From contig NW_003111970.1 in the NCBI RefSeq assembly GCF_000003605.2, positions 351,818 to 415,817 on the forward strand: a stretch of DNA of 64,000 nt, in the 5' to 3' direction. This DNA comes from Saccoglossus kowalevskii (taxonomy: Eukaryota; Hemichordata; Enteropneusta; Harrimaniidae). This document shows, in pieces, positions 8,991-55,720 of this stretch. The notes beneath the pieces are model-generated. The model made no database searches. It saw only the letters and a program-made list of their open reading frames with translations, and was not told where the DNA came from. The position numbers were made by a program, and so were the translations under genes. Each line of letters starts with the position of its first letter. Position 1 is the stretch's first letter.

Positions 8991-11826
8991 CTGGAAAACC
9001 ACTTCCTTGAACATCGTACTCTAATAAAACCACTTCCTGCAAATGAGACCACTTCCTTGATTATCGTATCCTAATGAGATCACTTCCTTGGATATCGCAC
9101 TCTAATGAAACCACTTCCTTTGACATCGTACTCATCATATGGAGCCACTTCCTTGAATATCGTACTCTAATGAGACCACTTCCTTGAATAGTGTACTCAA
9201 TGAGACCACTTCACTAAATATCGTACCCTAATGAGACCACTTCCTTGAATAGTGTACTCAATGAGACCACTTCACTAAATATCGTACCCTAATGAGTGCA
9301 CTTCCTTGAATATCGTACCCCAATGAGACCACTTCACTAAATATCGTACCATAATGAGACCACATCCTTGAATATCGTACCCCAATGAGACCACTTCACT
9401 AAATATCGTACCCTAATGAGTGCACTTCCTTGAATATCGTACCCCAATGAGTCCACTTCCTTGAATATCGTATCCTAATGAGACCACTTTCTTGAATATC
9501 GCACTCTAATGAAACCACTTCCTTCAACATCGTACTCATCATATGGAGCCACTTCCTTGAATATCGTACCCTAATGACACCACTTCACTAAATCTCGTAC
9601 CCTAATGAGTCCACTTCCTAGAATATTGTACCCAAATGAGACCACTTCCTTGAATATCGTACTCTTATTTCCTTGGATATCATATATGATTGAAACTACT
9701 TCTCTAATAAACCACTTCCCTAAATACCGTACCCTAATGAGACCACTTCCCTTGAATATTGTACTCTAATGAGATCACTTCCCTAAATACCGTACTCTAA
9801 TCAGATCACTTCCTTGAATATCGTACAATAATGAGACAACATCACTAAATATCGTACTCTAATCAGACCACTTCCTTGAATATCGCACTCTAATGAAACC
9901 ACTTCCTTCAACATCGTACTCATCATATGGAGCCACTTCCCTAAACATCGTACCCAAATGAGACCACTTCCTTGAATATTGTACCCAAATGAGACCACTT
10001 CCTTGATCATTGTACTCAATGAGACCACTTCCTAGAATATCGTACCCCACTAATACCACTTCACTAAATATCGTAACATAGTGAGACCACTTTTTTGAAT
10101 ATTGTACCCTAATAAGACCACTTCCTAGAATATTGTACCCTAATGAGACCACTTCCTTGAATAGTGTACTCAATGAGACCACTTCCTTGAATATCGTACC
10201 CTAATGAGACCACTTCACTAAATATCGTACCCTAATGAGTCCTCTTCCTTGAATATCGTATCCTAATGAGACCACTTCCTTGAATATTGTACCCTAATGA
10301 GATCACTTCCCTAAATACCGTACTCTAATCAGACCATTTCCTTGAATATCGTACACTAATGAGACCACTTTCTTGAATATCGTACCCTAATGAGACCACT
10401 TCCTTGAATATCGTACACTAATGAGACCACTTTCTTGAATATCGTACCCTAATGAGACCACTTCCTTGAATATCGTACACTAATGAGACCACTTCACTAA
10501 ATATCGTACCCTAATGAGTCCACTTTCTTGAATATCGTACCCTAATGAGACCACTTCCTTGAATATCGTACACTAATGAGACAACTTCACTAAATATCGT
10601 ACCCCAATGAGTCCACTTCCTTGAATATCGTACCCTAATGAGATCACTTCCTTGGATATCGCACTCTAATGAAACCACTTCCTTCAACATCGTACTCATC
10701 ATATGGAGCCACTTTCCTAAACATCGTACCCAAATGAGACCACTTCCTTGATCATTGTACTCAATGAGACCACTTCCTAGAATATCGTACCCTACTAAGA
10801 CCACTTCACTAAATATCGTAACATAGTGAGACCACTTTTTTGAATATTGTACCCTAATGAGACCACTTCCTAGAATATTGTACCCTAATGAGACCACTTC
10901 CTTGAATAGTGTACTCAATGAGACCACTTCCTTGAATATCGTACCCTAATGAGACCACTTCACTAAATATCGTACCCTAATGAGTCCACTTCCTTGAATA
11001 TCGTACCTCAATGAGTCCACTTCCTTGAATATCGTACCTCAATGAGTCCACTTCCTTGAATATCGTACCCCAATGAGTCCACTTCCTTGAATATCGCACT
11101 CTAATGAAACCACTTCTTCAACATCGTACTCATCATATGGAGCCACTTCCCTAAATACCGTACTCTAATCAGATCACTTCCTTGAATATCGTACACTAAT
11201 GAGACAACTTCACTAAATATCGTACCCTAATGAGTCCTCTTCCTTGAATATCGTATCCTAATGAGACCACTTCCTTGAATATTGTACCCTAATGAGATCA
11301 CTTCCCTAAATACCGTACTCTAATCAGACCACTTCCTTGAATATTGTACTCAATGAGACCACTTCCTTGAATGTCGTACCCTAATAAGACCACTTTCGTG
11401 AATGTCGTACCTCAATGAGACCACTTCCTTGAATATTGTACTCAATGAGACCACTTCCTTGAATGTCGTACCCTAATAAGACCACTTCTTGAATATCGTA
11501 CCCTAATGAGACCACTTCCTTGAATGTCGTACCCTAATGAGACCACTTCCTTGAATATCGTACCCTAATGAGTCCACTTCCTTGAATATTGTACTCAATG
11601 AGACCACTTCCTTGAATATCGTACCCTAATGAGACGACTTCCGTGAATATTGTACTCAATGGGTCCACTTCCTTGAATATCGTATCCTAATAAGACCACT
11701 TCACTAAATATCGTACCCTAATGAGTCCACTTCCTTGAATATTGTACTCAATGAGACCACTTCCTTGAATATCGTACCCTAATGAGACGACTTCCGTGAA
11801 TATTGTACTCCAATGAGACCACAACA
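8991..11826. repeat. 2.8-kb minisatellite, about 31-bp unit, with higher-order structure
   Basis: Roughly 90 tandem units share the core CACTTCCTTGAATATCG. The period is usually 31 bp, with 30-bp variants ending TACTCAAT. Variant units (ACTTCACTAAATATCG, CTCATCATATGGAGCC, CTTGATCATTG, ACATAGTGAG) recur in the same order, notably at about 9885-10190 and 10660-10925, which shows amplification of multi-unit blocks. Minus-strand ORFs of up to 138 codons across the array are by-products of a 93-bp (3 x 31) reading-frame cycle and are not genes. Confidence 0.97.
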
Positions 11827-12810: not shown

Positions 12811-13203
12811 NNNNNNNNNNNNNNNNNNNNNNNNNNNNNNNNNNNNNNNNNNNNNNNNNNNNNNNNNNNNNNNNNNNNNNNNNNNNNNNNNNNNNNNNNN
12901 NNNNNNNNNNNNNNNNNNNNNNNNNNNNNNNNNNNNNNNNNNNNNNNNNNNNNNNNNNNNNNNNNNNNNNNNNNNNNNNNNNNNNNNNNNNNNNNNNNNN
13001 NNNNNNNNNNNNNNNNNNNNNNNNNNNNNNNNNNNNNNNNNNNNNNNNNNNNNNNNNNNNNNNNNNNNNNNNNNNNNNNNNNNNNNNNNNNNNNNNNNNN
13101 NNNNNNNNNNNNNNNNNNNNNNNNNNNNNNNNNNNNNNNNNNNNNNNNNNNNNNNNNNNNNNNNNNNNNNNNNNNNNNNNNNNNNNNNNNNNNNNNNNNN
13201 NNN
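12811..13203. other. assembly gap (393 N)
   Basis: A run of N. Any ORF crossing it is an artefact. Confidence 1.
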
Positions 13204-16028: not shown

Positions 16029-16432
16029 CTCGCTGCGTAGCGTAGCGCGCTGTGCCAGTACACTTTATGTTGCGGAACGACTATTGCGCGCTGTGGCAGT
16101 ACACATGACGCTGCCTAGCGACTATGGCGCGCTGCAGCAGTACTAGTGGCGCTGCGTAGCGACTATGGCGCGCTGCGTAACGACTAAGGCGTGTTGCGTC
16201 AGTACACGTGGCGCTGCTTAGCTACTATGGCGCGCTGGGTAACGACTATGGCACGCTGCGGCGGTACACGTGGCGCTGCGTAACGACTAAGGCGCGCTGC
16301 GTCTGTACACGTGGCGCTGCTTACCGACTATGGCGCGCTGCGTAACAACTGTGGCACGCTGCGGCAGTACACGTGGCGCTGCGTAACGACTAAGGCGCGC
16401 TGCGGCAGTACACGTGGCGCTTCGTGACGATT
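16029..16432. repeat. GC-rich CpG-dense minisatellite, about 20.5-bp subunits
   Basis: Two subunit types alternate: one like CTGCGTAACGACTAAGGCG and one like CTGCGGCAGTACACGTGGCG. They combine into blocks of about 41 bp (two subunits) or 62 bp (three subunits). About 19-20 subunits are present, more diverged on the left. The composition contrasts sharply with the AT-rich flanks. Confidence 0.93.
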
Positions 16433-31292: not shown

Positions 31293-31328
31293 CAACAAAG
31301 ACTACACTGGTGTCTTCAGCGTGTAACT

Positions 31329-32906
31329 ATGTTGGCAATGCACGGCGTGAAACATGATAAAAGTCGGTTGGACAGGCTTGGAGCTGATATTATGCGTGAA
31401 CGAGAGCATGACATGTGGAGGAGAGATTTACAAATTAGAACAGGTCAGCAAAGCATCAAGACTTCTACGGCAGACATGCCAACACTCTGTTCATTTTATT
31501 CGCAGAGCGCACCGCTGTTTAATAAACGAAAGTTCAGCCTCTTGGGTAGTGACCTGGAATTTGAGGAAGCGAAAATCAAGAGGCGAATCAACGCGTCAAT
31601 GAAGCCCGTACCACCCTTGCTGAGCCTGTACAGATCAAAAAGCGCCTTCGACGAAATCAGGAACACGGTGCGTTATGACTATAGGGAGAACAACAGAGTA
31701 TTGGAAAGTAACTCATTTTATTCTGACCGTAACCGTGTACAGGAAGACAATATTCGTCAACGTTCTTTGAAAACCATTTCCGTGGGTAGGCCTTCGCCGC
31801 CCTCTGCGCGTGAAGATGGAGATAATATGACTTCAGAAAAAATAACAGAAAGCAATATTTTCTCTACGAAAGACACGTTAACAGTAGACGTTGGAAAGAA
31901 ACCAACAGCGAAAAAAATTGTCCGAAATGACTTCAAGTCCATGAGTCGGCTTTTGAGTCTTGACGATGACTCGGACGAGCCTGGACAATCTAAGGACACA
32001 AATCAACGTACTGGCAGCGCATTTCGGGAAGTTTCTCGCAACGTTGATGTACGATCGAATAATCTTGCCCATGGCAGTACCAGTGAGGAAAATGGGAGGA
32101 ATGCAACTGGGTTAAAATACAGTACACCGTTTGGCGATGTCTTGTTGCAGAAACCGGAAGTTACACATAGAGCGTTTCATCGCGAAGCTGCCGATAAGAA
32201 TTCGAACACTGAGCGTCTTCACTCACCGCCGTCAACACCATCATCGCCATCGCACGTCGGTTTTCGCGGTGCTCTATCGCCACCACTGTACGATGCATCG
32301 CCACCAACGGAGTCTCTGAGGCTTGGTATTTATCAAAATTCACTACCTTCTACGACCAAAAGTGCGTTCTCCCCTCCAACTCCTGGCTCAGACTATTTAA
32401 ACGAACGAATAAGAATGATAGAGTATTTGCAAAAAAAGCCCGCCAACCAGTACTACCAAGACAACGCGAGGAGATCTTTTACAAACTCAAAAATGGCGAC
32501 TGATCTGTTTATGCCAAGTGGCGTGGAACCAACGCGTTTCTCTGGAGTACCTGTACCTCCATCACAAGCAGACATAGGGGCGACTGCATCCTTCCCTGGA
32601 TACCCGCCAGTGTTTGAAGGCACTGAACAAACCCCGTTCACAGCCCCGAAACTGTCACCACAAACGCAGGTCATCCTGCCATTGTCATCGTCAGTGGTGA
32701 ATTTCGCTCAGAACTGGTGCGTTAAGTGCAATGCGAGTTTTCGTATGACCAGTGACCTGGTGTATCATATGCGGACACACCATAAGAAGGACCAGATTGA
32801 TCCACACAAGCGGAAACGAGACGAGAAACTAAGATGTAACATATGTGGGGAAACATTTCGTGAGCGTCACCACTTATCCAGACACATGACGTCACATCTC
32901 GGGTAG
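31329..32906 (+). CDS. PRDM8/ZNF488-like C2H2 zinc-finger protein
   Basis: An intact 525-codon ORF in one exon. Two classical C2H2 fingers lie at the extreme C-terminus: C464/C467/H480/H484 in the context WCVKCNASFRMTSDLVYHMR, and C503/C506/H519/H523 in the context CNICGETFRERHHLSRHM. A basic KRKR linker between them may serve nuclear import. Both fingers and their wording are characteristic of the C-terminal pair of vertebrate PRDM8 and ZNF488, nuclear repressors of neural and glial differentiation. The rest is low in predicted order: a charged N-terminus (MREREHDMWRRD), then Ser/Pro-rich sequence with SPPTPG-type motifs. I see no PR/SET domain, so it resembles ZNF488 in layout, though longer. 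The start is the first ATG after the acceptor and the uORF. Role as a DNA-binding repressor is inferred from the family. Confidence 0.92.
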   Translation: MLAMHGVKHDKSRLDRLGADIMREREHDMWRRDLQIRTGQQSIKTSTADMPTLCSFYSQSAPLFNKRKFSLLGSDLEFEEAKIKRRINASMKPVPPLLSLYRSKSAFDEIRNTVRYDYRENNRVLESNSFYSDRNRVQEDNIRQRSLKTISVGRPSPPSAREDGDNMTSEKITESNIFSTKDTLTVDVGKKPTAKKIVRNDFKSMSRLLSLDDDSDEPGQSKDTNQRTGSAFREVSRNVDVRSNNLAHGSTSEENGRNATGLKYSTPFGDVLLQKPEVTHRAFHREAADKNSNTERLHSPPSTPSSPSHVGFRGALSPPLYDASPPTESLRLGIYQNSLPSTTKSAFSPPTPGSDYLNERIRMIEYLQKKPANQYYQDNARRSFTNSKMATDLFMPSGVEPTRFSGVPVPPSQADIGATASFPGYPPVFEGTEQTPFTAPKLSPQTQVILPLSSSVVNFAQNWCVKCNASFRMTSDLVYHMRTHHKKDQIDPHKRKRDEKLRCNICGETFRERHHLSRHMTSHLG

Positions 32907-36232: not shown

Positions 36233-36845
36233 TATTTATATTTATGACACACATTATATTGACCGAAGCTCATTTACCAGAGTCTTCAACACCACGCATC
36301 ATCTGACAACGATGGCCCTTGCCGGCTCATGCATGAATTATGTGAGCGTTGGCGGCGTGAGATCAGAATGACACGTTAAGCGAGTTTACTTTTTGGTTTA
36401 TGAGCCATAGACATACTCGATGCAGCAGCTGCCTAATACACACTGTTACTCTATCATGGTTAGTTCAGAATTACGTGAAATCTTCGGAATTGTTTAATTT
36501 TGTTTTCGGGCATGCACACGTCGTTCTTGTTACATTATCGGTCATTAAGATACCATTGTTGAGATAACGTTGACTCGCATTACGTTGTAGGTTATCTTTG
36601 TGTAGTAGATTCAATTACAATCTTGACTGTTATTACATTATGTTCTTTATTAGGATAGTATGTAACAATAAGCCGAAAGGGGTGACAAATTCGATTTTTC
36701 AAGAATGAGATGCAATTGTTCAGTTACTTTAGAAAACTGTATTTGCACTGACGGATTAATGTATACTGCCAATATTTGAACAGTTCGATTTGAAGAAACT
36801 CAATTAATTAGTCACGGTGTCGATCACCTTCCCGAGTGAAAATAT

Positions 36846-37202
36846 ACCATTTTTCCTTTCACTACAAGATTCCGCGTTATGCGTGAAATCGAATGAAAAA
36901 TCAGGACAAACAAAATTGAAAGTCGATGCGCCATATTGGCGTCAAAACATTGCGTAAGGATTCGGCAAACGCGAAAGTATGTCCACGCACAATACTAGTA
37001 TGCTACAGGCATTTGATGATGGTCAGTTTTGATGAAGTAATGGCATCTCAACGTCATATTTCCAACTGAGAGATTGACATTTTCATATTTAGTTATAAAC
37101 AAATGAAATTCCAGTTCACAATCAAGTCATTCAATTTTTGCGGCAGACGTTCGGTTCGCACCTTTCACGTACTATGCGAGATCTCGCAATGAACGGAACA
37201 TC
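36846..37202 (+). mobile_element. TIR element, copy 1 (inverted partner at 38906-39280)
   Basis: The reverse complement of this segment aligns colinearly with 38906-39280: shared blocks include CGATTTCACGCATAACGCG, ACGTCTGCCGCAAAAAT and GCGAGATCTCGC. Its own ends are imperfect inverted repeats (TTTTCCTTTCACTACAAGA against the complement of TCTCGCAATGAACGGAA). At about 360 bp with no coding capacity it fits a MITE-like non-autonomous DNA transposon. Confidence 0.75.
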
Positions 37203-37847: not shown

Positions 37848-38824
37848 TCAAGTCATATATGGGGGAGAATCTCTACTCCAAGCCCACATTTCCTGATCAT
37901 TTTGATGTGAATCGTAATGATTGTCCAGGCGATTACGAGATGATATCAGTTCGTCGTCGATTTCAGCCTGTAACTCTTGTCGCTTTCGTTCTTGCGTCCG
38001 CTTCTCGGTAGACGAATTACACATACAGGAACATAGTGTAATTGCAAGTATAACGAAAACAGCTACGGCAAGTGTTGCTCCGATGATGGACCACACTATG
38101 GTATCGTCGACTGGCTCCAGCCAGGGGTTACCATCTTCCGTTGTGTTTTCAGATGAACGACGACCTCGTTCTAAGATGTGACCGATAGAAAATTCAAGAT
38201 CCTGAGACAAATTAAAACAAGATTAGTATATAATCACAACATCCTATACGTCACGGCGAGAAGAATATAGATCAGGATTAAAACACGGGGGGGGGGGGGG
38301 CGTAGATTTAAAAAAAAAATATACTTAGAGATTGATTTGAAACTAAATCCTACAGAAAAAAGTGACAACATAAATTATTTATTAAAAACGCGGTCCATGT
38401 AAAGGAGGAAAGCGTTCACTACAGCCACACCGTCCTAAGTGAAGACAAACAATAGTATGCGCAGTTTATTTTTGTTATCAATTCCTCTCTCAGAGTTGTT
38501 ATTAGTCAGCCGTAAAACTTGAAATAATATTTCTTTCATCGATATGCCACACGTTTCAACGGAAATCCGGGGCAGTTTTAGACCTTCAACCCGTTGGTTG
38601 CCACACCAAGAGTAAATATCACGTGTCATATTTGCACATGTCACGTGACCCGGTGACTGTCACATGACCATGACAGAAAATGATTCATTTGGTCTATACA
38701 TTTATGTTTGACGAAACTCACTGTGACTGTACAATACGCGTAATGATACAGGGATGACTGTATGATTACATTAAAATACTCAAACTGTTCAGTTCACCAT
38801 TTTAAGTTAGTTAACTACTAACTA

Positions 38825-38861
<37 letters not shown>

Positions 38862-40513
38862 TGTCGGTAGTCTTAATTGCCAAATTTAGTAATTTTAAAT
38901 CATTTTGCATATTTTCCGTACAATTGCGAGATCTCGCGAGATGCATGAAAGACGCGCGTCGAACGTCTGCCGCAAAAATCGAACGATTTGATTTTGAACT
39001 AGAATTTCTTTTTTTCGTAGCTTACATTGACCGGCCGATCTTCGACAGAGGAATATTGCTTCCGAATACCCTTACTTAATCGAAATTGCCTATCATCAAA
39101 TGTGGACAGCACATTATTAAGCATGGAAATGTCCCCGATGGACCCCGAAATAATTTCGCGTTTGTCGAATCCCACGCGATGTTTGACGCGACTACGACAC
39201 TATGACCTTTGTTGTCCTGTTTTTACGTTCGATTTCACGCATAACGCGTGATTCTCGCAGTGAACGGAAAATGGTCTATTACAGAGCAGCTGCGACCTCA
39301 CTTCACTTAACCCGGATCATCGTGTACAATTGAATATCATATTCTCCAGTGTTGACATGTGAACTGGGAACCGCATGGAACTTATTTTCAGTAATCACTT
39401 GTAATGTAACACTAGACCTGTAGCTGTACAACCTGGAATCGGATACGGTTATATAATAATTATTATGAAAAATTATAAATATTTTGAGTAATATCTTATT
39501 CCATATCATACACCAACTGGTTGTGTGTCTACTGTAAAGTACTGACATATTGTTTTCGTCGTATACGAAATAGTATTCCTAAGATCAAATAAGAAACTGC
39601 GCATGCGCACAAAATTATTAATACGTTCTATTATTTACATGTGAATACACAATAGCGTTAGTTTGTTTGTTAGTTTCGGCTCACAAATCATAGTTTAGAG
39701 CAGCTGAATCAAAGGTGTTTATTTTGTCTGTAGAATAACGTGATATCCAACACAAGTACTTGAAGAAGCCCATAAATTAGCCGCATTGATTTGGTTTGTT
39801 CTCGTATACAGTGTACATTGTGTTAGGTGTTGTTTTGGTATCCTATTTACTGATGTTGTGGGAGTGTAAGGGATGTTATCTGACTTGTCTGGATTGTGCG
39901 GGTACACAACACAGACCTATGTAATCCGACATGAACTTTGACCCACATCTGAGACGCAACTTTACTCCATTGATTCTAGGGGGGGGGGGGGTACTTGCCG
40001 GGAATGCTGTACATGAATGGAAGGAAAAGCTACAAATATAGTGGATAGGGTCTATATTCACAAATATACAGACTGTTGACTGCGTGAACTGAGCTTATTC
40101 TGGTTATTCATTATGTAAACATGCCCGCAACACGCATATACTAAAGTAGTGGTGATTTTAACCTCGAATACAAAGATAACGCAGTGGTCATTGTCGATTG
40201 TATACAGGGGCTAGTAAGCAACATATATCGAGATTTAATTGCTGATTATAGACATACACACCTAACACGTCAGATATATGGTAACTGTTCGATAACCTGT
40301 AAAACGCAACAATCATGGCGGACATCATAACAACAGCCAACACCACTTACGGGCTTTATGTACAATTACCTTGATGCTGTGTCTAATTACCTTCTCATCT
40401 CGTCGTCCGTGAGACTCCAAGTCTCCATCAAACGCAGCATCGACTACGTATCCAAGACAAACTACGACAAACAAAATTAGAACACTGTGAATGCTAGCCT
40501 TCGGCAACATCAT
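37848..40513 (-). CDS. small type I membrane protein A (two exons), paralog of the plus-strand gene at 41935
   Basis: Exon 1 is 40513-40391 (41 codons): MMLPKASIHS, then a hydrophobic VLILFVVVCLGYVV signal peptide with likely cleavage near VDA, and a short acidic segment ending DEK before donor GTAATT. A second donor, also GTAATT, at 40370/40369 would add seven codons. Exon 2 is 38201-37848 (117 codons plus stop) after acceptor TTTGTCTCAG. Both junctions are phase 0. The mature protein has an N-glycosylation site (NTT), an NPW motif, one transmembrane helix (WSIIGATLAVAVFVILAIT, about residues 77-96), a Cys-rich juxtamembrane CSCMC and a charged tail ending SPPYMT. Total is about 158 aa. I recognise no known family. 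The in-frame ATG at 40627 would bury the signal peptide, so ATG 40513 is preferred. Confidence 0.75.
38287..38300. repeat. poly(G) run, 14 bases
   Basis: An uninterrupted G tract in the intron of gene A. Similar tracts occur at 39979-39991 (13 G) and 51915-51925 (11 G), and beside the gap at 43424-43431. Confidence 0.9.
38829..38860. repeat. (AT)n microsatellite
   Basis: About 16 AT dinucleotides, just outside the second TIR-element copy. Confidence 0.95.
38906..39280 (-). mobile_element. TIR element, copy 2 (inverted partner at 36846-37202)
   Basis: Ends are ATTTTCCGTACAATTGCGAG on the left and the complement of CTCGCAGTGAACGGAAAAT on the right, a clear terminal inverted repeat. The body matches copy 1 in reverse. 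The left end includes TCTCGCGAGA (38932-38941), identical to the CGCG promoter motif known to bind BANP in vertebrates; copy 1 carries a diverged form. The ORF at 39027-39251 lies within the element and is not a gene. Confidence 0.78.
39598..39609. promoter_or_regulatory. perfect NRF1-type palindrome
   Basis: TGCGCATGCGCA, 12 bases and fully palindromic, inside the intron of gene A. Confidence 0.35.
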
Positions 40514-41236
40514 TTTGTCGACCTGTACACTGTGTTGTCGGATGTCACTGGTTGTCGAGTACACTGTCCGGGTTAAAGTTTTACGTTGTATTTGTTTAAA
40601 GGCATGCGTTATCAACATCATCTGCACGACATTGTGTCCTTCATGAATTCAGTAATCTCCGGGTCATTTCCTTGTAAAATCCACATCCAAAACAGCTCTC
40701 AGAAAACAGCCTTATTGAAAACGAAAAAAAAAAAAATACTAAAATAGTTTTTTTTTTTAAATGGCTTACCGGAGAACCTATAAATAAAATGTATTGCTAC
40801 TTATAACAGTTTCGCGCCAATATTTGATGTCTGCCTGCTGCTACTTGCAGACTATAGATATCACACAAATCACCGTTTGCTGTTGTTTTAATATGATATG
40901 TGAGATTTTTCAAAACATGCGTAGTAATGATGTCACACCAGAAATTACACAATACACCGTGTCCACGTGTTGGTATTGTAAATGATATATTATACACATC
41001 CGGACGCTTAATGCCGAAAAAGTAGCTACATTTTTCAAAGAAGCTCCATTGACATTCATCTATGTCGTGCAAAAATATTGCACCCACTCGACATGTTGTT
41101 TAGAAACTTGAATGTGGAGGTATCGCGCGGTTATGATTATCAGAAATTCATTAAGCATAAATACTACAATTAATCACGCATATCTATCGCATAGATTTAT
41201 TTAAGTTCACCCATCGCTTTTTTAAAATAAAAAAAT

Positions 41237-41252
41237 ATGCAAATATGCAAAT
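41237..41252 (+). promoter_or_regulatory. two perfect tandem POU octamer motifs
   Basis: ATGCAAATATGCAAAT consists of two directly abutting copies of ATGCAAAT, the consensus site of Oct/POU-domain factors. Placement between two divergent paralogs suggests a shared enhancer element; this is inference. Confidence 0.4.
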
Positions 41253-41843
41253 GAAGACTGGAATGATAAATTAGATAATTCACGGTAACAATATCATGAA
41301 TTTAACTGATAAAGAAAAAAAGAGTGTATTTTCAAAGCACATTTTGGAGCCTCGTGGTTCGTGCTTCGGCATCGATGATGAATGCAAAACCAAGTCAAAC
41401 TGGACTGGGTCTAAAATCTTAGGCAGATTATAATAATTATGTTTACTGTAAACTTCGTTTTGCGCCACCAAAACCGCAAACGGGCTGAGTTATTTAACAC
41501 AAGGTCTACTTATTCCTGGCTCACAAATACTACAGAATAATAATGATAGTAAAAACGGCGTGGAAAAACATCTATGAGAAAAATAGTACTAGTACACAGC
41601 CCTCAGCTAAATAACCGCTCTTCCCTCACAGAGGCTATAACACTACACGTGACCTAACTCTTTGTTCTGTGACCGATTGTTCCAGTGCGGTGTAATATAC
41701 ATGTCGTTCGATATCTGACGAATATATTCATAATGACTGAGATGACGGAGATATCAGACAATCTATTAAGGAAGTTTGACGACTATGAGGTCAATGACCT
41801 TTGTTACTAAGTAGACAGGCTTTGACTCCACACGCCACACCAG

Positions 41844-41851
41844 TGACGTCA
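41844..41851. promoter_or_regulatory. perfect CRE palindrome
   Basis: TGACGTCA lies 83 bases before the ATG of gene B, a typical distance for a promoter-proximal CREB/ATF site. Confidence 0.4.
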
Positions 41852-41934
41852 CGTTGTTAAGATGAGTCGATACTGAGGCCAGTGATCAGACATCAAGTAG
41901 TACGCAGTCTAGCTTTGGATCAGATCAATATGAC

Positions 41935-44595
41935 ATGGAGACGAAATCGGGCTTTACGATAAGGAGCTACACACTTCTTGCTTTGGGTGTGGTAGTGTTG
42001 ATGGTCACGAGTGTGGAAAGTTTGAAAGATGGCCTCCAGGAAAATGAAGTTCGCGGCATCTTTGGCGTTAATGTTGGAATGAAGGTAATTATTATATATT
42101 ATGAAAGCAACGGATGATTAGTATAAAAGTTTGCTCTGCTGTTGGAAAAATAATGTATATATGTTTTATGTTAAAATGAAGTATCAAATTTGGAATGTAT
42201 TTACTCTTATCAGGGCCACATTAATGTTTGCAAAGTGTGTACTTGAAGTAGATTCTGATCGACAGACGACAGTCGTATATAGTCGTACATCTCTAGAGTC
42301 ATCTTATTCACACAGTTACGTTTGTCGTTTGTAATCTTAAAATAAACCTATCATTGACGTGAGTATCAATAAAACGAACCAGTTTAACGCATGTTTGTTG
42401 TACTATGAAAGTCACGCGTGGTGGAGAGCAAGGAGTTTTAGTACAATTTAGTCGGTTTTACTCCTATATTAGGCTACAAACTTGCAGACTGAGTTTACGG
42501 AGAGCTGGTCGTTCAACTTTAAAATTAATAACACAGAATACGGAAAGTTGTCCTGATAGGATTCCCTTTTTAGGGCCTCCCAACTTCGAGTTGGTAATAC
42601 TTATCTCCCAGCGAGTGCCACAAATGCAAACAAACACCATTGACTCTAACAGCATCACTGATACGTAACTCTGTTAGAAAGTATTTATCCGCAGGGGTCA
42701 CGTGTAAGCTTAAGGGTATTACGTCACTAGTAATGAACGCATTACGTACCTACCGAAACATACAAGACCATGTCAGCTGACAGAGACTGCTCATTGATGG
42801 ATATAAGTGAGTTCAAACATGTGGATTCCATCAACACGAATGTATTACGCCCTCATCCATAGTTCTGGTTACACACGCAGTGTATATACTCAACATAACT
42901 GTCGATTAAACGTGTTATACTAACAGTTCTCCAACGGTCATTGTTTCCATGAGACTGTGGGTACTATGGTGTGGCGATGTAGTAAAAATTAAATCAAATT
43001 CATAGTGTATTTAATTTTGTTTGTAATGTAATGTAGTTCGAATGGTTGCTTTTCAAACAAAGATATATTATCAATCTGTATAAACTTAAAGCCAAGTTCA
43101 GTGTCGGTGTCACGGTGTCTCACAATCATTCATTTAAAAGGTGACTTATATAGAACCACATCAGAATGACACAGAAAACCACATTTGGAATAACCGGGAC
43201 ATTTTCCGATGAAAGCATTTGTTGAATGGTTGTCATGTATTGTGTTCCCATCTTAATTTGTTTTAGTTGAACGGGTCGAAAATTGATATTATTCATTATT
43301 CAATATTTTTGGAATGTCATAACGCCCTCTTTATAATATATTCAATATACATTTCTAATCAATAATACAATCACAGACATTGCTTTGTGTTCGGGTTTTT
43401 ACCTTGCTCGTGATGTGACTAAAGGGGGGGGNNNNNNNNNNNNNNNNNNNNNNNNNNNNNNNNNNNNNNNNNNNNNNNNNNNNNNNNNNNNNNNNNNNNN
43501 NNNNNNNNNNNNNNNNNNNNNNNNNNNNNNNNNNNNNNNNNNNNNNNNNNNNNNNNNNNNNNNNNNNNNNNNNNNNNNNNNNNNNNNNNNNNNNNNNNNN
43601 NNNNNNNNNNNNNNNNNNNNNNNNNNNNNNNNNNNNNNNNNNNNNNNNNNNNNNNNNNNNNNNNNNNNNNNNNNNNNNNNNNNNNNNNNNNNNNNNNNNN
43701 NNNNNNNNNNNNNNNNNNNNNNNNNNNNNNNNNNNNNNNNNNNNNNNNNNNNNNNNNNNNNNNNNNNNNNNNNNNNNNNNNNNNNNNNNNNNNNNAAGAA
43801 AAAAATATTCTAACCATAAAATTAAATATTTGGGTCACTATTAATATCACAGCCTGATAATTACCGGTGTGATAAACAAATAACCAGTCTGAATTGTTAC
43901 ATGTATTCGTTATTAAATATTAGATTATCAATGGGCAAGTTTGTAATAGTTATGACTTATTCTTAATTACCAATGAATTCTATGGATGGACAAAGTCGCG
44001 CGAGAATAAGTTTTTGAAGATTATTTGTCAATTTCAGTGAATGAATTTTCCAAATACCTCCTATACTATACGTGCGTAACACATATCGTGTTAGTTGTGC
44101 TGTGAATCCACCAGCCTATCCACATGTATGGCATTTAAAATATTGTTTGGGGGCTTATTCAGTAAAATAGCTTATTTGTAGTAAAATTAATTATTTACAA
44201 CGTAGTTTTTATTTTTATCTTGTTGTAATTGTAATTGTAATCACGTGATCCATCGTACTTTTATTAACATCTCCGAATTCACATTGTTTACAGTAATATA
44301 TATTTTGTATTGACAGGACACGAAGTCAGGCCAGACTCGTTCTCGTCAAACCAGGGACGGTGACTACAACCCATGGGACGACGTTTCTTACAGATTCGGC
44401 ATGCTGTGGGCGATACTCGGATCGACGATTGCATTGGCCGTTCTGGTTATCATCGCTATTACTATGTATTCGTACAAACATAACGCCTCGTCAACTTCTC
44501 GGCTCATCGATAGGCGAAGAAGGAGACTTTACGAAGAGTTAGCTCGAAATAGTCTGAATACTTCATTTTATGAGGAAGTGTCCAGTAACTTATGA
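41935..44595 (+). CDS. small type I membrane protein B (two exons), paralog of the minus-strand gene ending at 40513
   Basis: Exon 1 is 41935-42084 (50 codons): a signal peptide with core YTLLALGVVVLMV and likely cleavage near VES, then a short segment ending GMK before donor GTAATT. Exon 2 is 44317-44595 (92 codons plus TGA) after acceptor GTATTGACAG. Phase is 0 and the junction is K|D, exactly as in gene A. The ectodomain carries the DYNPW motif. The helix WAILGSTIALAVLVIIAIT (about residues 81-99) matches that of gene A closely. A basic RRRRR stretch and tail follow, with YEEL (a YxxL-type motif) and an SSNL end that could be a PDZ ligand. Total is 142 aa. The start has G at -3 and +4. Function is unknown; a surface adaptor or receptor-associated role is only a guess. 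Confidence 0.77.
42085..44316 (+). other. intron of membrane-protein gene B, including an assembly gap
   Basis: No further exon is supported in the visible parts. ORFs at 42131-42334 and 42405-42668 lack splice sites in a compatible phase. A missing exon inside the N-run cannot be excluded, although the direct K|D junction matches gene A. Confidence 0.5.
43432..43795. other. assembly gap (364 N)
   Basis: A run of N directly after eight G bases; the poly(G) tract probably caused the break in assembly. Confidence 1.
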
Positions 44596-46146: not shown

Positions 46147-48878
46147 CATTTTATTGATAAACATAACAGCCCGAATATTTTAATTCAATAAATAATTGTT
46201 TGATTCAATTGAATAGTTATTTATAAAACAACACAGCGTGTAGTAGTACTGATGTTATATATCATGGTGGATTTAATTTTCACAGGCGAAGTTCTATAAT
46301 GATCAACCAAAGAAAACAGAAAAGTAAGAACCAGAGGCAATGTATACATATACCGACTCACTTTAACGATCTGAGTCTAACGATTTCCAGAGTGCAATCA
46401 CCTATACATAAGCCATTGACACCAACTTTCCGTCAAAGAGCAAACGCCCAACACTTCACTGTACGACGATGTATTACTGAACCTATCTAATACTGCCAAT
46501 ACAAATCCAGGTTACAATAACACATATTGCACATCATAAAGCTAAACATATCAATAACAGGCATATAATTTTATAGTGCAAAATGAGCCGTATTTGTTAT
46601 CCATAGTATCAGACCGTAATACCCCCCCCCATAAACACTGTTATTGTTAATACAACAGCTGCGAAGCATTATTTCATAACGACTGTATATTCCATTTGAT
46701 GTTTCAATTGAATGAAGACAATAATACAAAGAGTCAAGAACTGAATTATAAATATATATACATATATTTAATCTATATTTTAATATAAATGGTTAAGATG
46801 ATATAATATATTCCCATTGATTTTGTGTACCATAATTCAATGCCATATATTCAGTAAAATGATCGGTGGATGTGAAAAACACGGATCTTGTAAATATCAG
46901 GGTATATTTTCCCCACTAGCTAGCATCTATGCCGCAAGTATAACATGTCACTTGTAATATACGACCAACTCAGTGACCCTATAGTAACCAAAGTGTATTT
47001 ATTACATTTACATCCGGGTTTGTTTTATATTATATTTTATATTGTCTCATGTTTCTGATATTCAAACCGATAATTTTATCTGTCAATGATATATTATTTG
47101 TTTTTGCAACTAAACATAAAATAGATCTAATAACTGAGTAAGAACACATACACATTGCGTAAAATAAAATTATAAAAATAACGTTATGCCTAATGTTATT
47201 GACAACATATTTCTTTAGAAATTCCTTAGACATCTCAAACTGTTTTCTCAAACTGAATTGTTGTTATTGTAAACACATGACTGACAGGAGTTTCACTAAG
47301 CATACAAGCACGGTTGAATGTAAATAACGAGGATTTTTTAAAGAGTGATTCTAAAATCATCAATTATTCATACTTACTTTGTAATATATCATCGAATGCA
47401 GCGTTATGGAATGTACACATCGCACCTGTGATGATATTGAACAGCATGTATATATCACGTAATGATTTGACGGTTACCTGGCAACAGTCCAGTTTAACCA
47501 ATATTCGAAGTTGTATGCAAAAGGGAACAGGGAACTTGAAAGCGGCGGTGTTCATGGCAAACAAATGAGAACGTTTTGAATGTATTTTTTAATTACTTAA
47601 TCACTAGAAACTTCATCAGAAATAATTTGAGGACGCTCTGAGATGCTGAAAACTCAATCACAACTCCTGTGAATATTATATTTAGCAAACGGCACACAGT
47701 GCTTTATACGCCAAATACTACAAACAAATAATACAACTTTAATACAAATAGAAAAAGCTGATAAACCTGGAATGGAATATGACATACACCAAGAAATGCA
47801 GAATACATGAAACAAAAAGTTTCTAATAACAATTGAACTGAATTAAAAAATAAATTGGACACGGCTGGCGATACAACGGATCGTGATGTCACGTGGTAGC
47901 AGGTGCATCAGAAGTAGATGCGAGGGGAATTACATCGACATGTTGGCTGTTTGTTGAAACAAACTCGCATTGGACAGTTATAGTTTCTGAACCAATTACT
48001 CACATGGTATATAACGTAAACCATAAGAAGTGGCATCGAGTTAATTAATATCACAATGTATCGCCTAAGGAAATGTACTTGTAATGTTACGATTAAATCC
48101 ACGATGTTCCCGTCACAGGTTAACATCTAATGATGTAATCTGAAATCTGCCTTCAATCATAAAAATGTTCTTTTGGTTAATAATACTGATTATTTCAGTG
48201 TGTTGTGCGCCACTCGGAGACTTTCTAAATAAAGACACACTATTTGATTGTAAATGCACATCCAACCTCAATTTTGTGAATACCATCTGACTTAGCATGA
48301 GCGCATGGCGCATTCAGTGTAGCTTATACGTTCGCAATCGGAGAGAAATCTCAGAAAGTCGGACGATCTATCATCGGTTTGAAGATCTCAGTAACAAAAC
48401 GATGAAACTTTGACAATTGCCATCGTTGATGCTACCCACAAGTTAATAGGGACGTTACCCCGGTTACAGGTTAGTTTCTGTTCACGTAGTGTACTCTAAT
48501 AGATGTAACAGGTATACACGTCAGTGTAGTTTATAGCTCAAGTGGATCTTCAACCATAGATTGTTACCTGATAGAGTATACTGTGCGCTGTTGGTATTTG
48601 CATCATATATGCAATGTTTTGTCGATGTTATGAGAAGCTCAGACACGTTGTATTCAGCTGTTGGCCCAAGATGTAGGTAAACCGTACGAAAACGTCATTG
48701 GCCAAACGTGCGTTAGGAGAGAGTGGATGGACTTCCTTCCTTGTTAATAATAAACAAACAATATACAAATACTTCAACAGGTTGTTAAAAACATAAATTC
48801 TGAGAAATATCGCACTGTTCACACAAGTTCTGTCACAGACAAACTATATTGCGTCTACATTGCGAATTAACTTTATTT
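46147..48878. other. intergenic, nothing recognised
   Basis: AT-rich. A possible acceptor before 46286 opens only short frames (46299-46490) with no family resemblance. A nine-C run is at 46622-46630. ORFs at 47030-47251, 47314-47568 and 47704-48313 look random. Confidence 0.45.
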
Positions 48879-51800: not shown

Positions 51801-52713
51801 ATAAATAATAAAACGTTAATACGCTGATTTTAATTTCCAGATGTGGATCTTGAACTGAAGGCCAAAAATGCTAAGTTTACTAAAGCGATCAATTGCATGC
51901 AAACGCTACCTTGAGGGGGGGGGGGAGGTTATGTACCAATACTTTAATAGCGACTACATTACTTTGAAATGTTAATAATATCAACCCATATACTGAATTT
52001 TAAGCTATATTTACCTTCTTTTTGTTCTTAGCAATGTTTTTGTCTCTAGCATTGTTACTCTCCCCTGGTGTTTTGGATAAATACATCTTCTTTACAATCA
52101 AGCTGTACGCAACGGTGATAACAAATAACGGCACAGCATAAGACGTGACAAAGATATACAGATGATAAATATTTCGACTTTTTTCACTCGACCATACTGG
52201 CGCGCAAAACACCCGTCCGTCAGGAAACCCATAATCAAGTATTCGCAGGTTCAGCAACTGCGGAATCGATGTACATATACCATTTATCCATATTATGCTC
52301 ATGGTGATAACCGCAGAATATGGTGTTAGTCTTCTACGTAACGGGTGACACACCGCAAAGTACCTGTCCACGGATATAACAGTCAAGGTACCAATGCTAA
52401 CTAATATGGAAAGCGTTTTGACGAACGGTACAAATGGACACATAAAATCACCAAACGGCCATCTGAACAGAATCGCAGGAGCGAATTGGAATGGTGTAGC
52501 GAACAGTCCTTGAATAATGTCACTTATGGCTAGGTTAACTAGGAATGAGTTCGTAATCGTTCTCAGTTTCTTGTTCCGCAAAACTACGAATATAACGAGA
52601 GCATTTCCAAGAACAGACATCAAAGAGATGACACCATAGAGAAGAGACAAAACTACAGTAATCGTCAACGAAGGACTGGAATTGAACACTGCAACAGTGC
52701 CGTTGCTAGCCAT
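48879..52713 (-). CDS. class A (rhodopsin-like) G protein-coupled receptor, neuropeptide-receptor type
   Basis: Four exons join in phase: 52713-52015 (233 codons), 50827-50727, 50319-50229 and 49025-48879, all with GT-AG sites; total 345 aa. ATG 52713 gives a 16-residue N-terminus with N-glycosylation sites NGT and NSS; the frame stays open upstream but begins at a GTG. Landmarks: GNALVIFVV (TM1, N37), LAISD (TM2, D65), C92 and C170 (the TM3-loop disulfide pair), DRYFAVCHPL (TM3, DRY 116-118), W142 (TM4), P195 (TM5), FALCWLP (TM6, 245-251), NPFVY (TM7, 289-293), then helix 8 DNFKKEYRKVF. The WLAMSNAACNPFVYGLLN region resembles NPFF/QRFP-type receptors, but the ligand cannot be fixed from sequence. 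It is expected in the plasma membrane, coupling to G proteins. GTGAGT at 48899 could be a donor to a further exon instead of the TAA stop. Confidence 0.93.
49026..50228 (-). other. third intron of the GPCR gene
   Basis: Bounded by donor GTAAGT (50228) and acceptor CCCACATACAG (ending 49026). It holds an (AAAC)n run at 49504-49535 and no exon. The ORF at 49832-50032 lies on the other strand and looks random. Confidence 0.7.
49504..49535. repeat. (AAAC)n microsatellite
   Basis: About eight AAAC units, degenerating to the right. Confidence 0.9.
50320..50726 (-). other. second intron of the GPCR gene
   Basis: Bounded by donor GTGAGT and acceptor GCCCATTTCTAG. It splits an Arg codon (AG|G) between TM6 and TM7. 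Confidence 0.85.
50828..52014 (-). other. first coding-region intron of the GPCR gene
   Basis: Bounded by donor GTAAAT and acceptor TTTTTGGCTGTAG, phase 0, in the third intracellular loop after KNKKK. A 112-codon minus-strand ORF (51299-51637) has no splice support. An 11-G run is at 51915-51925. Confidence 0.8.
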
Positions 52714-52749
52714 TTCAATGGATGATGTACTCGAAGTATCAACTTCAGG

Positions 52750-55720
52750 CTCACTTACGAATATATTAATATAAATCCTGGCATGGACAGAGCAATCAGA
52801 AATAAATAAACAATTTAGCATCCATTGTGAATCAACACCACTTATATTGTGTTGTCCCGAAGGTCTTCGATACTTCACGTTCTCATTCGACCATCGCTAA
52901 TAGATAGGGTCGCTATAGTCACAGCCAGTTTATATATATTTAAACATTCGAAAATCCTGAAAGAAAAAAACAAACAAACAATTAACCAACATCGTGAGAA
53001 CAACGAATTGTTTCATTTTGTCTGACGTAAACATACAATCAAATGAAGTCAAGCAGAAATCTGTTCCGTATATTGTGTGGCTTCAATTGCGAAATCTATA
53101 CATTGGTGAATTGACTTCTCATGAAACACATACATTGAAAGCATCAAGAAAGCTAGTCTAGCTGTATGATGACGTGTTATAGTAGATTTTGAGTAGGCGT
53201 CTGAAACCAGAAAACAACATAGTAATACACGACAAAAGTACATGACGTTCTCCAGTGATTGATGAGTCGTACATATAACAGGACAACTTTAAGATGAATT
53301 GGTTTCAAATGTATCATCACACGATAGCAACTTTACCAGTAATACATTTAATAAACGGAAATTAATCGTCGCTTATTTGACGCCGGCAAGACACATATCA
53401 ATCTGTTTTAGAGACTACGTATTGTTTTTTCCTTCCTGGTGCCACAAACTGAGACAGAAGGTAACTAAGATATGTTCATCATATTGGAGACCACCACTGT
53501 ATTATCCCTCAACTGAACACCGCACGCACGTATCAATCATTCACACCGATGACACTCACTGCGCAACTAAACTATTCAAATCTATGATATCCATATTATT
53601 CTAATTACGATCGCAAACTATGTAAATTTAAATTTAAATCCAGATCAGACCAGACAGTTTCTTAAGTTATACGAAATGATGATATAACCATGGTAACGGT
53701 GGTTAACTAGTTTAACCGTAGTAGATGCGATTAGTGAACACATTTCCTGATATTAATCTGCGTGAATGCTTGCATAATCGCAATCATACATCTGGAAATG
53801 AAGCACTGTTAGTTTCTAAGTTACTGAGATTATCTCGCCATGCAGTCGTGTTTTCGTACAAAAACAATCACGGTAACTATAGTTTCAGAAATATACTGAT
53901 TATACCATTGGAGTGTAATAATAATTGGATTTCATTACGTCTATATTGCGTGGCTATTACTGCATGCTTTGTGTGTTGTATTTTACAGGAATAAACCCGA
54001 AATTGTTTGATATCGATCACAGATGAATAGGTTTGCGTGTTTTGAAGAAGCGAATGATAATAGTGGCCTTGTGAGACATGTATCATAATAACCACATTTC
54101 TATATAGGCAGATTTTTTAAACTCAGCAGGTAATATGACCTTTTACATGCAGCAACGTTTGTTTAGGCGTGACGAAACGAGCAGAGCAATAAATAGAGGA
54201 AATAAGAGCCGATTAGTACCATGCTGTCTTGTTGATTGCGACTGATTCAAAGTAGCATGTAATAATATATTGCTGAGCCTGTGTCGTGGGGCAATAGAAA
54301 CCCCGTAATTCATTTCAATCGCGCCAATATACGGATTTGTTACGAAAAACGAACAATTACAAGTTCATACTGTTGTTTGGAACAACAAATGTGTGATGTA
54401 AGTAGAAATAACATAATGTGTATTATTATACATCTGTCACCGTAACGCCATAAGTTACAGCGTGCCGTAATCATGCGGTATTTCATCCTACCATATTAGG
54501 AAATGCGAATTCCAAATCTGGAATGATTACGCGCGTAAGCGTCCTCTAATAATAAAAAACAAACATGGCTGCCACCAAGGTTTGACCGGACTCAACACAG
54601 AGAAGTTCGCTGACTCCACACAAAGAAGTTCGCTGATTTTGTTCTAAACTTTTTGGATTTCAGCATTCCCATGATGTATACTTGGAAGGAGAGGATGTAT
54701 AATAATAAGGTTATTACGAGAATACCTCAAAGTATGCGCTCAGACAGTACGCCGTTGCATCGAAACTCCCGCTGTACTGTCTTCGTGCAATATATAATCT
54801 TTACACTTAAAATAATGGAATATATATGTTGTATAATTTATCGATATTACGATATTGATATTTTGATCACGATGAAATAGTTTGCAATAATGTACATGAC
54901 ACACAATAAATAATCGAAGCCATAAAATGAATTATATTCATGAATTATTCGTAGAGTTTATGAATGTTATGAATGTATTTTGGAAATAAATCCATTTTCC
55001 CCAGTTGAAACTTCAAATGAATGAGTGAAACATGCCAATAATTGCATAGGCCGACAGCCAACGGTAATATCAACGGATAAATTACTATATGTAACTGATA
55101 CCAATAATAACATTTAGATGAATAAAGCATAAAATACGTATTGACATAAAAATCAATTCATAGAAGAAGTCACTTTTCACGCTAAGTCAATATATTTTAG
55201 ATAAACATAACTATTTATGAAAGACTGAAAATTCTACACGAGTTGCGCAAAGATGAAATTGACACCATACAACTATACACATATTTAGTGGAATATTTCT
55301 ACTACAGACACATTTTACTTTCAACGTGATACAGAGTTGATTTCAGCGATATTTATTGCAAATCAAAGTACACAGTCAAAGACTGAACACAATTATTCCT
55401 GGCTAAAAATTAAAATATTTATATTTTTTAAGTGAATTGCAAGTGAGGGATTTATTCAGTTATCACTTACCAAGGTCAGATAGGTCATCGACTAGATTGA
55501 ATTCATTTTGATACAATATTTGTGACAGCACGACACGGACAACTGCGTTAACGTTGTTAAATATAGTTAAGAATATAAACGGAGTAACGGTTGCCAACAC
55601 ATGTAGTAGACGCTAAAAACGTTGAATCAATGGTACTTATTCCAGCTTCTATGACCAACGACGTCAACGTTTAAAACTGTTTACAATAAAACCGGATAAA
55701 GTATTTTATGACAATATACG
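52750..55720 (-). repeat. GPCR upstream region, copy 1 of a dispersed duplication
   Basis: Segments at about 52750-52850, 52942-53040, 53129-53270, 55445-55490 and 55630-55720 each match, in the same order and orientation, segments in 58568-63790. Shared phrases include AAACATTCGAAAATCCT, GATTGATGAG/GATTGATTACG contexts, and TTTAAAACTGTTTACA. The block at 55471 carries a splice donor on the minus strand (CCTTG|GTAAGTGATAA) and is a candidate 5' UTR exon of the GPCR. An acceptor-like CCATGCCAG at 52778 could receive it, leaving 64 bases of UTR before the ATG. Confidence 0.65.
54590..54635. repeat. two-copy 23-bp tandem duplication
   Basis: Two adjacent copies contain CACAGAGAAGTTCGCTG and CACAAAGAAGTTCGCTG, two mismatches in 23 bases. 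Confidence 0.85.

Follow-up and report, generated by a model that had tools for sequence, protein, structure and literature searches.

An old pair of divergent paralogues

Two small genes, A and B, lying head to head in the window (the whole 64,000-nucleotide stretch of Saccoglossus kowalevskii DNA analyzed here), are a real, old and divergent paralogous pair, and the earlier note that reported them was sound in this observation. Their paralogy, claimed there from inspection, is upheld by alignment: the local score of the whole proteins is 128, reached by 0/10,000 whole shuffles (mean 27.5, maximum 64) and by 0/10,000 shuffles that preserve segments (mean 35.4, maximum 86), and with the signal peptides removed the score is 122 against a shuffle maximum of 78. 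With A as query, tblastn on the window hits B exon 2 at E 1.8e-10; with the roles exchanged, E is 1.0e-10.

The similarity is unevenly spread. Exon 2 of A and B aligns with a score of 122 and the helix alone with a score of 73, each reached by 0/10,000 shuffles; the exon-2 ectodomain scores 33 (69/10,000), the tail 38 (116/10,000) and exon 1, the least similar part, 31 (448/10,000). Judged by these scores, no other part comes close to the helix in conservation, and it forms the conserved core of the pair; all twelve helix residues that had been named as shared are indeed identical in A and B. Helix likeness can be partly compositional; the helix-only shuffles argue against composition as its whole cause. 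The tails have diverged as described, A ending in SPPYMT and B carrying five Arg, YEEL and an SNL end.

Codon comparison suggests both constraint and age. Over 117 aligned codons (44 identical residues) the differences at positions 1/2/3 number 57/43/81, and over a 32-codon block around the helix 13/5/22; a simple chi-square on these unequal counts gives p 0.002 and 0.004, respectively. Among the 15 identical residues of the block, 10 are written with different codons, which together with the codon-position counts suggests that selection has kept the helix residues. By NG86, dN is 0.66, and dS was not computable and is taken as saturated, so that, with the third-position excess, A and B look constrained and their duplication old; the 58% nucleotide identity of the helix block likewise points to an old duplication. 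That the paralogues lie in inverted orientation, as had been proposed, is upheld, and we infer that the pair arose by an old inverted tandem duplication. Neither tblastn nor an A/B profile found a third family member in the window, the next match of the profile having E 0.33. A 12-residue tail-like match at 46450-46485 was rejected as a third member (E 6.5, with stops around it).

Gene models and the region between the genes

Gene A runs on the minus strand from 40513 to 37848 and gene B on the plus strand from 41935 to 44595, each with two exons; the coordinates of both divergent models were reproduced. Exon 1 of A (40370..40513, minus strand) encodes the start Met, a hydrophobic, signal-peptide-like stretch and the first part of the ectodomain, and exon 2 (37848..38201, minus strand) encodes RGRR, the sequon NTT, NPW, one transmembrane helix with GxxxA, CSCMC and the SPPYMT end before the stop, for a predicted 165 aa. 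Exon 1 of B (41935..42084, plus strand) also provides the start Met, a signal-peptide-like stretch and the first ectodomain part, ending at an AAG/GTAATT donor, and exon 2 (44317..44595, plus strand) encodes RQTR, NPW, one transmembrane helix with GxxxA, five Arg, YEEL-x9-YEEV and the SNL end before the stop, for a predicted 142 aa. As had been claimed, the intron of each gene is in phase 0 and has a K/D junction; both introns have GT-AG ends. The AAG/GTAATT donors were also found in both genes, but A has two of them rather than one: they are in frame and 21 bp apart, after K41 (exon ending at 40391) and K48 (ending at 40370), so that A exon 1 has two possible ends 7 residues apart, for a protein of 165 or 158 aa; a 7-residue alternative splice is possible. 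On the two strands of the window the nonamer AAGGTAATT is present at three places, all of them these donors: the one of B and the two of A.

In each gene, exon 2 is stop-free in one of the six frames. A 364-base run of N (43432-43795) lies inside the B intron and could hold a further B exon. The gene pair as such is almost certainly real. That the models are artefacts or pseudogenes, mere chance ORFs, is most improbable: they were built from sequence alone and the B intron contains that gap, but against this stand the protein similarity with its third-position excess and saturated dS, the single open frame of exon 2 in both genes, and the matching phase-0 introns and donors.

The start codons are separated by 1,421 bp (40514..41934) of 37% GC, with 52 CpG versus 48.6 expected; CpG observed/expected for the whole window is 1.10. 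Self-comparison of the window revealed no inverted repeat with one arm on the A side and the other on the B side. GC and CpG content are ordinary here, and the single control region that had been inferred for the pair is unsupported, though the divergent layout may allow A and B to be driven from one region. Inverted repeat-like copies at 36841-37201 and 38911-39280 (pieces 79% and 82% identical) flank A exon 2, one downstream of the stop codon and one in the intron; they may be a MITE pair.

Features of the predicted proteins

Hydropathy shows two hydrophobic peaks in each protein, at the N terminus and in exon 2, as expected for a signal peptide plus one helix, and we infer that A and B are type I membrane proteins. 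The signal peptide that had been placed in exon 1 is predicted from hydropathy, as a hydrophobic N-terminal stretch. The description of the A ectodomain as Cys-rich failed: it contains no Cys. Instead, the signal-peptide stretch of A has one, and the inner membrane face has three (105, 107, 109), which form CSCMC. NPW does occur in exon 2 of both proteins (NPWLEP in A, NPWDDV in B), but is not telling alone, with two further sites in the six-frame translation.

Outside the membrane, A has a single R-x-x-R (RGRR) and the sequon, and B has RQTR; in both ectodomains R-x-x-R sits shortly before NPW. Shuffling the ectodomain yields this pattern in 48% of cases for A and 26% for B. GxxxA falls at the same aligned place in the two helices; about 15% of shuffles of each helix contain GxxxA or GxxxG. 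The 23-residue helix stretch has no D, E, K or R in either protein. On the inner side, A has no Y-x-x-phi, and its YMT end does not fit the class I PDZ-ligand pattern; the SNL end of B does, at a chance level of about 3% of random tails. The loose YxxL-x9-YxxV of B arises in 0.6% of B-tail shuffles and 0.4% of random 39-mers and does not satisfy the strict ITAM pattern; the tyrosine pair is mildly unusual, for a motif picked after the sequence was seen.

Family searches

The pair had been said to belong to no recognized family, which held for the libraries searched, Pfam-A and PDB sequences: no match reached its cut-off in the former and none in the latter was convincing. With Pfam-A at E up to 10 (search filters drop most matches with E above 0.1), A had 8 matches and B had 3, each under its cut-off. 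The best for A was a bacteriocin-like model (E 0.0072, 17.8 bits, cut-off 40) and the best for B had E 0.026 (15 bits, cut-off 26.4); an Eph receptor transmembrane model also matched A below cut-off (E 0.037). Among PDB sequences, A had 10 matches (best E 0.21, none convincing), B had none and an exon-2 profile had 3 (best E 0.36). In prokaryote genome contigs 103 stretches fit a search pattern and none was confirmed, and in viral contigs the same was true of 8 and 57 pattern matches, results that are expected for an animal gene and uninformative. Among the listed titles and abstracts retrieved with broad terms such a pair was not found described, from which its absence from print does not follow. 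The further step from an old divergent paralogous pair to an undescribed system, taken in the earlier note, is unsupported.

Proposed function and alternatives

Most likely, A and B are small type I proteins, an unnamed pair in which the helix interface is common and the tails differ. Our best explanation, to which we give a probability of about 0.35, is that they are paralogous accessory subunits that share one membrane interface and have rewired tails. The two subunits would keep the interface through a small-xxx-small face, G-[AS]-T-[LI]-A, packing A with B or each with the same larger partner; the B tail might be phosphorylated or sorted via its two YEE-phi motifs and tethered via its C-terminal SNL, and the three juxtamembrane Cys of A would anchor its tail, which lacks B's motifs, to the membrane. 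The helix would recognize, and the differing tails would set what follows. The concentration of constraint in the helix suggests that it does the recognizing, of the other paralogue or of a common partner. Paralogy, helix conservation, GxxxA at the same place, the B tyrosine pattern and the fit of SNL all favor this explanation, and against it count the chance levels of the motifs and a tyrosine motif that is post hoc, non-strict and missing from A.

ITAM adaptor chains such as DAP12 and FcR gamma offer a partial parallel; their tails carry YxxL/I-x6-12-YxxL/I and a charged helix residue pairs with receptors. As in those chains, the proteins are short and type I, and the tyrosine motifs of B are spaced as in an ITAM, but the second motif ends in V rather than L/I, A has no motif, and neither helix has a charged residue. 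A stronger version of the subunit idea, in which A and B constitute a family absent from the libraries and form an obligate heterodimer through the helix, B signalling in ITAM-like fashion and A being a membrane-anchored, non-signalling partner, with one divergent locus fixing their ratio, is very unlikely.

Quite possibly, though we would not bet on it, A and B instead belong, as divergent members, to an animal single-helix family that is already known but lies outside the libraries searched or has a profile too loose to be matched from two sequences. The searches spanned Pfam-A and PDB sequences only, and short single-helix proteins easily escape profile searches; on the other side, neither protein reached a Pfam-A cut-off, and the best PDB match was the E 0.21 of A, with none for B. 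An invertebrate branch of a transporter-regulator family, for example FXYD or MAP17/PDZK1IP1, is a separate alternative, and we consider it quite unlikely even though the layout is the same, a short ectodomain being followed by a motif at the membrane, one helix and a tail that is also short. FXYD proteins (presumably Pfam PF02038) are regulators of the Na,K-ATPase, and they share with A and B the small type I form, signal peptide, short motif just outside one helix and, in the CSCMC of A, inner-face Cys; they differ in having the PFxYD signature where A and B have NPW, and in a shorter ectodomain. MAP17/PDZK1IP1 (which we take to be PF15807), a partner of SGLT2, likewise has a signal peptide and PW just before one helix; its PDZ-ligand-like C-terminus is paralleled in B only, A being without a class I PDZ end, and there is no convincing sequence match. 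What speaks for this reading is an hhalign probability of 37% against three FXYD sequences (E 0.00035 for a single comparison, 32 helix and inner-face columns), the 101/3000 and 113/3000 shuffles that reach the score of A against FXYD1 and FXYD6, the 405/10,000 for the A helix against MAP17, and an hhalign probability of 10% for MAP17 (E 0.0032 for a single comparison, 16 columns at PW). Yet the scores of B against FXYD1 and FXYD6 are reached by as many as 1676/3000 and 2343/3000 shuffles, those of the whole proteins against MAP17 by 639/3000 (A) and 560/3000 (B), that of the B helix against MAP17 by 832/10,000, and those of the A and B helices against FXYD1 and FXYD6 by 1200 to 3923/10,000; the lowest rate among these twelve shuffle comparisons is 3%, and since values near 4% are expected by chance in twelve, they are hints at most. 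Neither family appears in the Pfam output for A or B at E up to 10. FXYD membership was set aside for its missing PFxYD, although a weak helix-level signal is left, and MAP17/PDZK1IP1 membership was set aside on the shuffle rates, the hhalign probability and the lack of a Pfam match.

It is unlikely, if less so than a place among those regulators, that A and B are membrane-tethered precursors from which a furin-type cut at R-x-x-R frees an N-terminal small signalling peptide. The placement of that site shortly before NPW in both proteins would suit such a role, as would the two occurrences in A of GRR, presumably an amidation-like pattern, but the shuffled ectodomains yield R-x-x-R at the high rates given above, and exon 1, which would supply most of the peptide, is the least similar part, conservation lying in the helix. 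A furin-released peptide was therefore rejected as the main function, its sites being within chance.

As it stands, the pair of A and B represents one small, unnamed gene duplicated locally. With confirmation from orthologues, it would add one more unnamed family to the short single-helix membrane proteins of animals, which are often overlooked in automated annotation, and the two proteins, with one helix and two tails, offer a natural comparison for asking which part carries function.

Other features of the window

A and B lie between two larger ORFs, whose content suggests animal DNA. One is a plus-strand ORF of 537 codons (31293-32906) with two C2H2 fingers at its end by Pfam, which may resemble the fingers of PRDM8/ZNF488. 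The other, a minus-strand ORF (52000-52896), encodes the beginning of a peptide receptor of the rhodopsin type (7tm_1 positions 1-194 of 260), the remainder of which presumably lies on a different exon. In PDB its best match is to neuropeptide FF receptor 1 (E 9.7e-34), with tachykinin receptors also near. Of the 41 ORFs listed for the window, ten more gave one match against Pfam at E up to 0.1, below cut-off. Besides the gap in the B intron, the window has a second assembly gap, a 393-base N run at 12811-13203. A minisatellite of about 2.8 kb (8998-11823) has a 31-bp unit, with a period of 93 as well, and contains two minus-strand ORFs of 113 and 144 codons, and a tandem array at 16045-16430, its unit rich in G+C, shows periods of 41, 62 and 103 bp.
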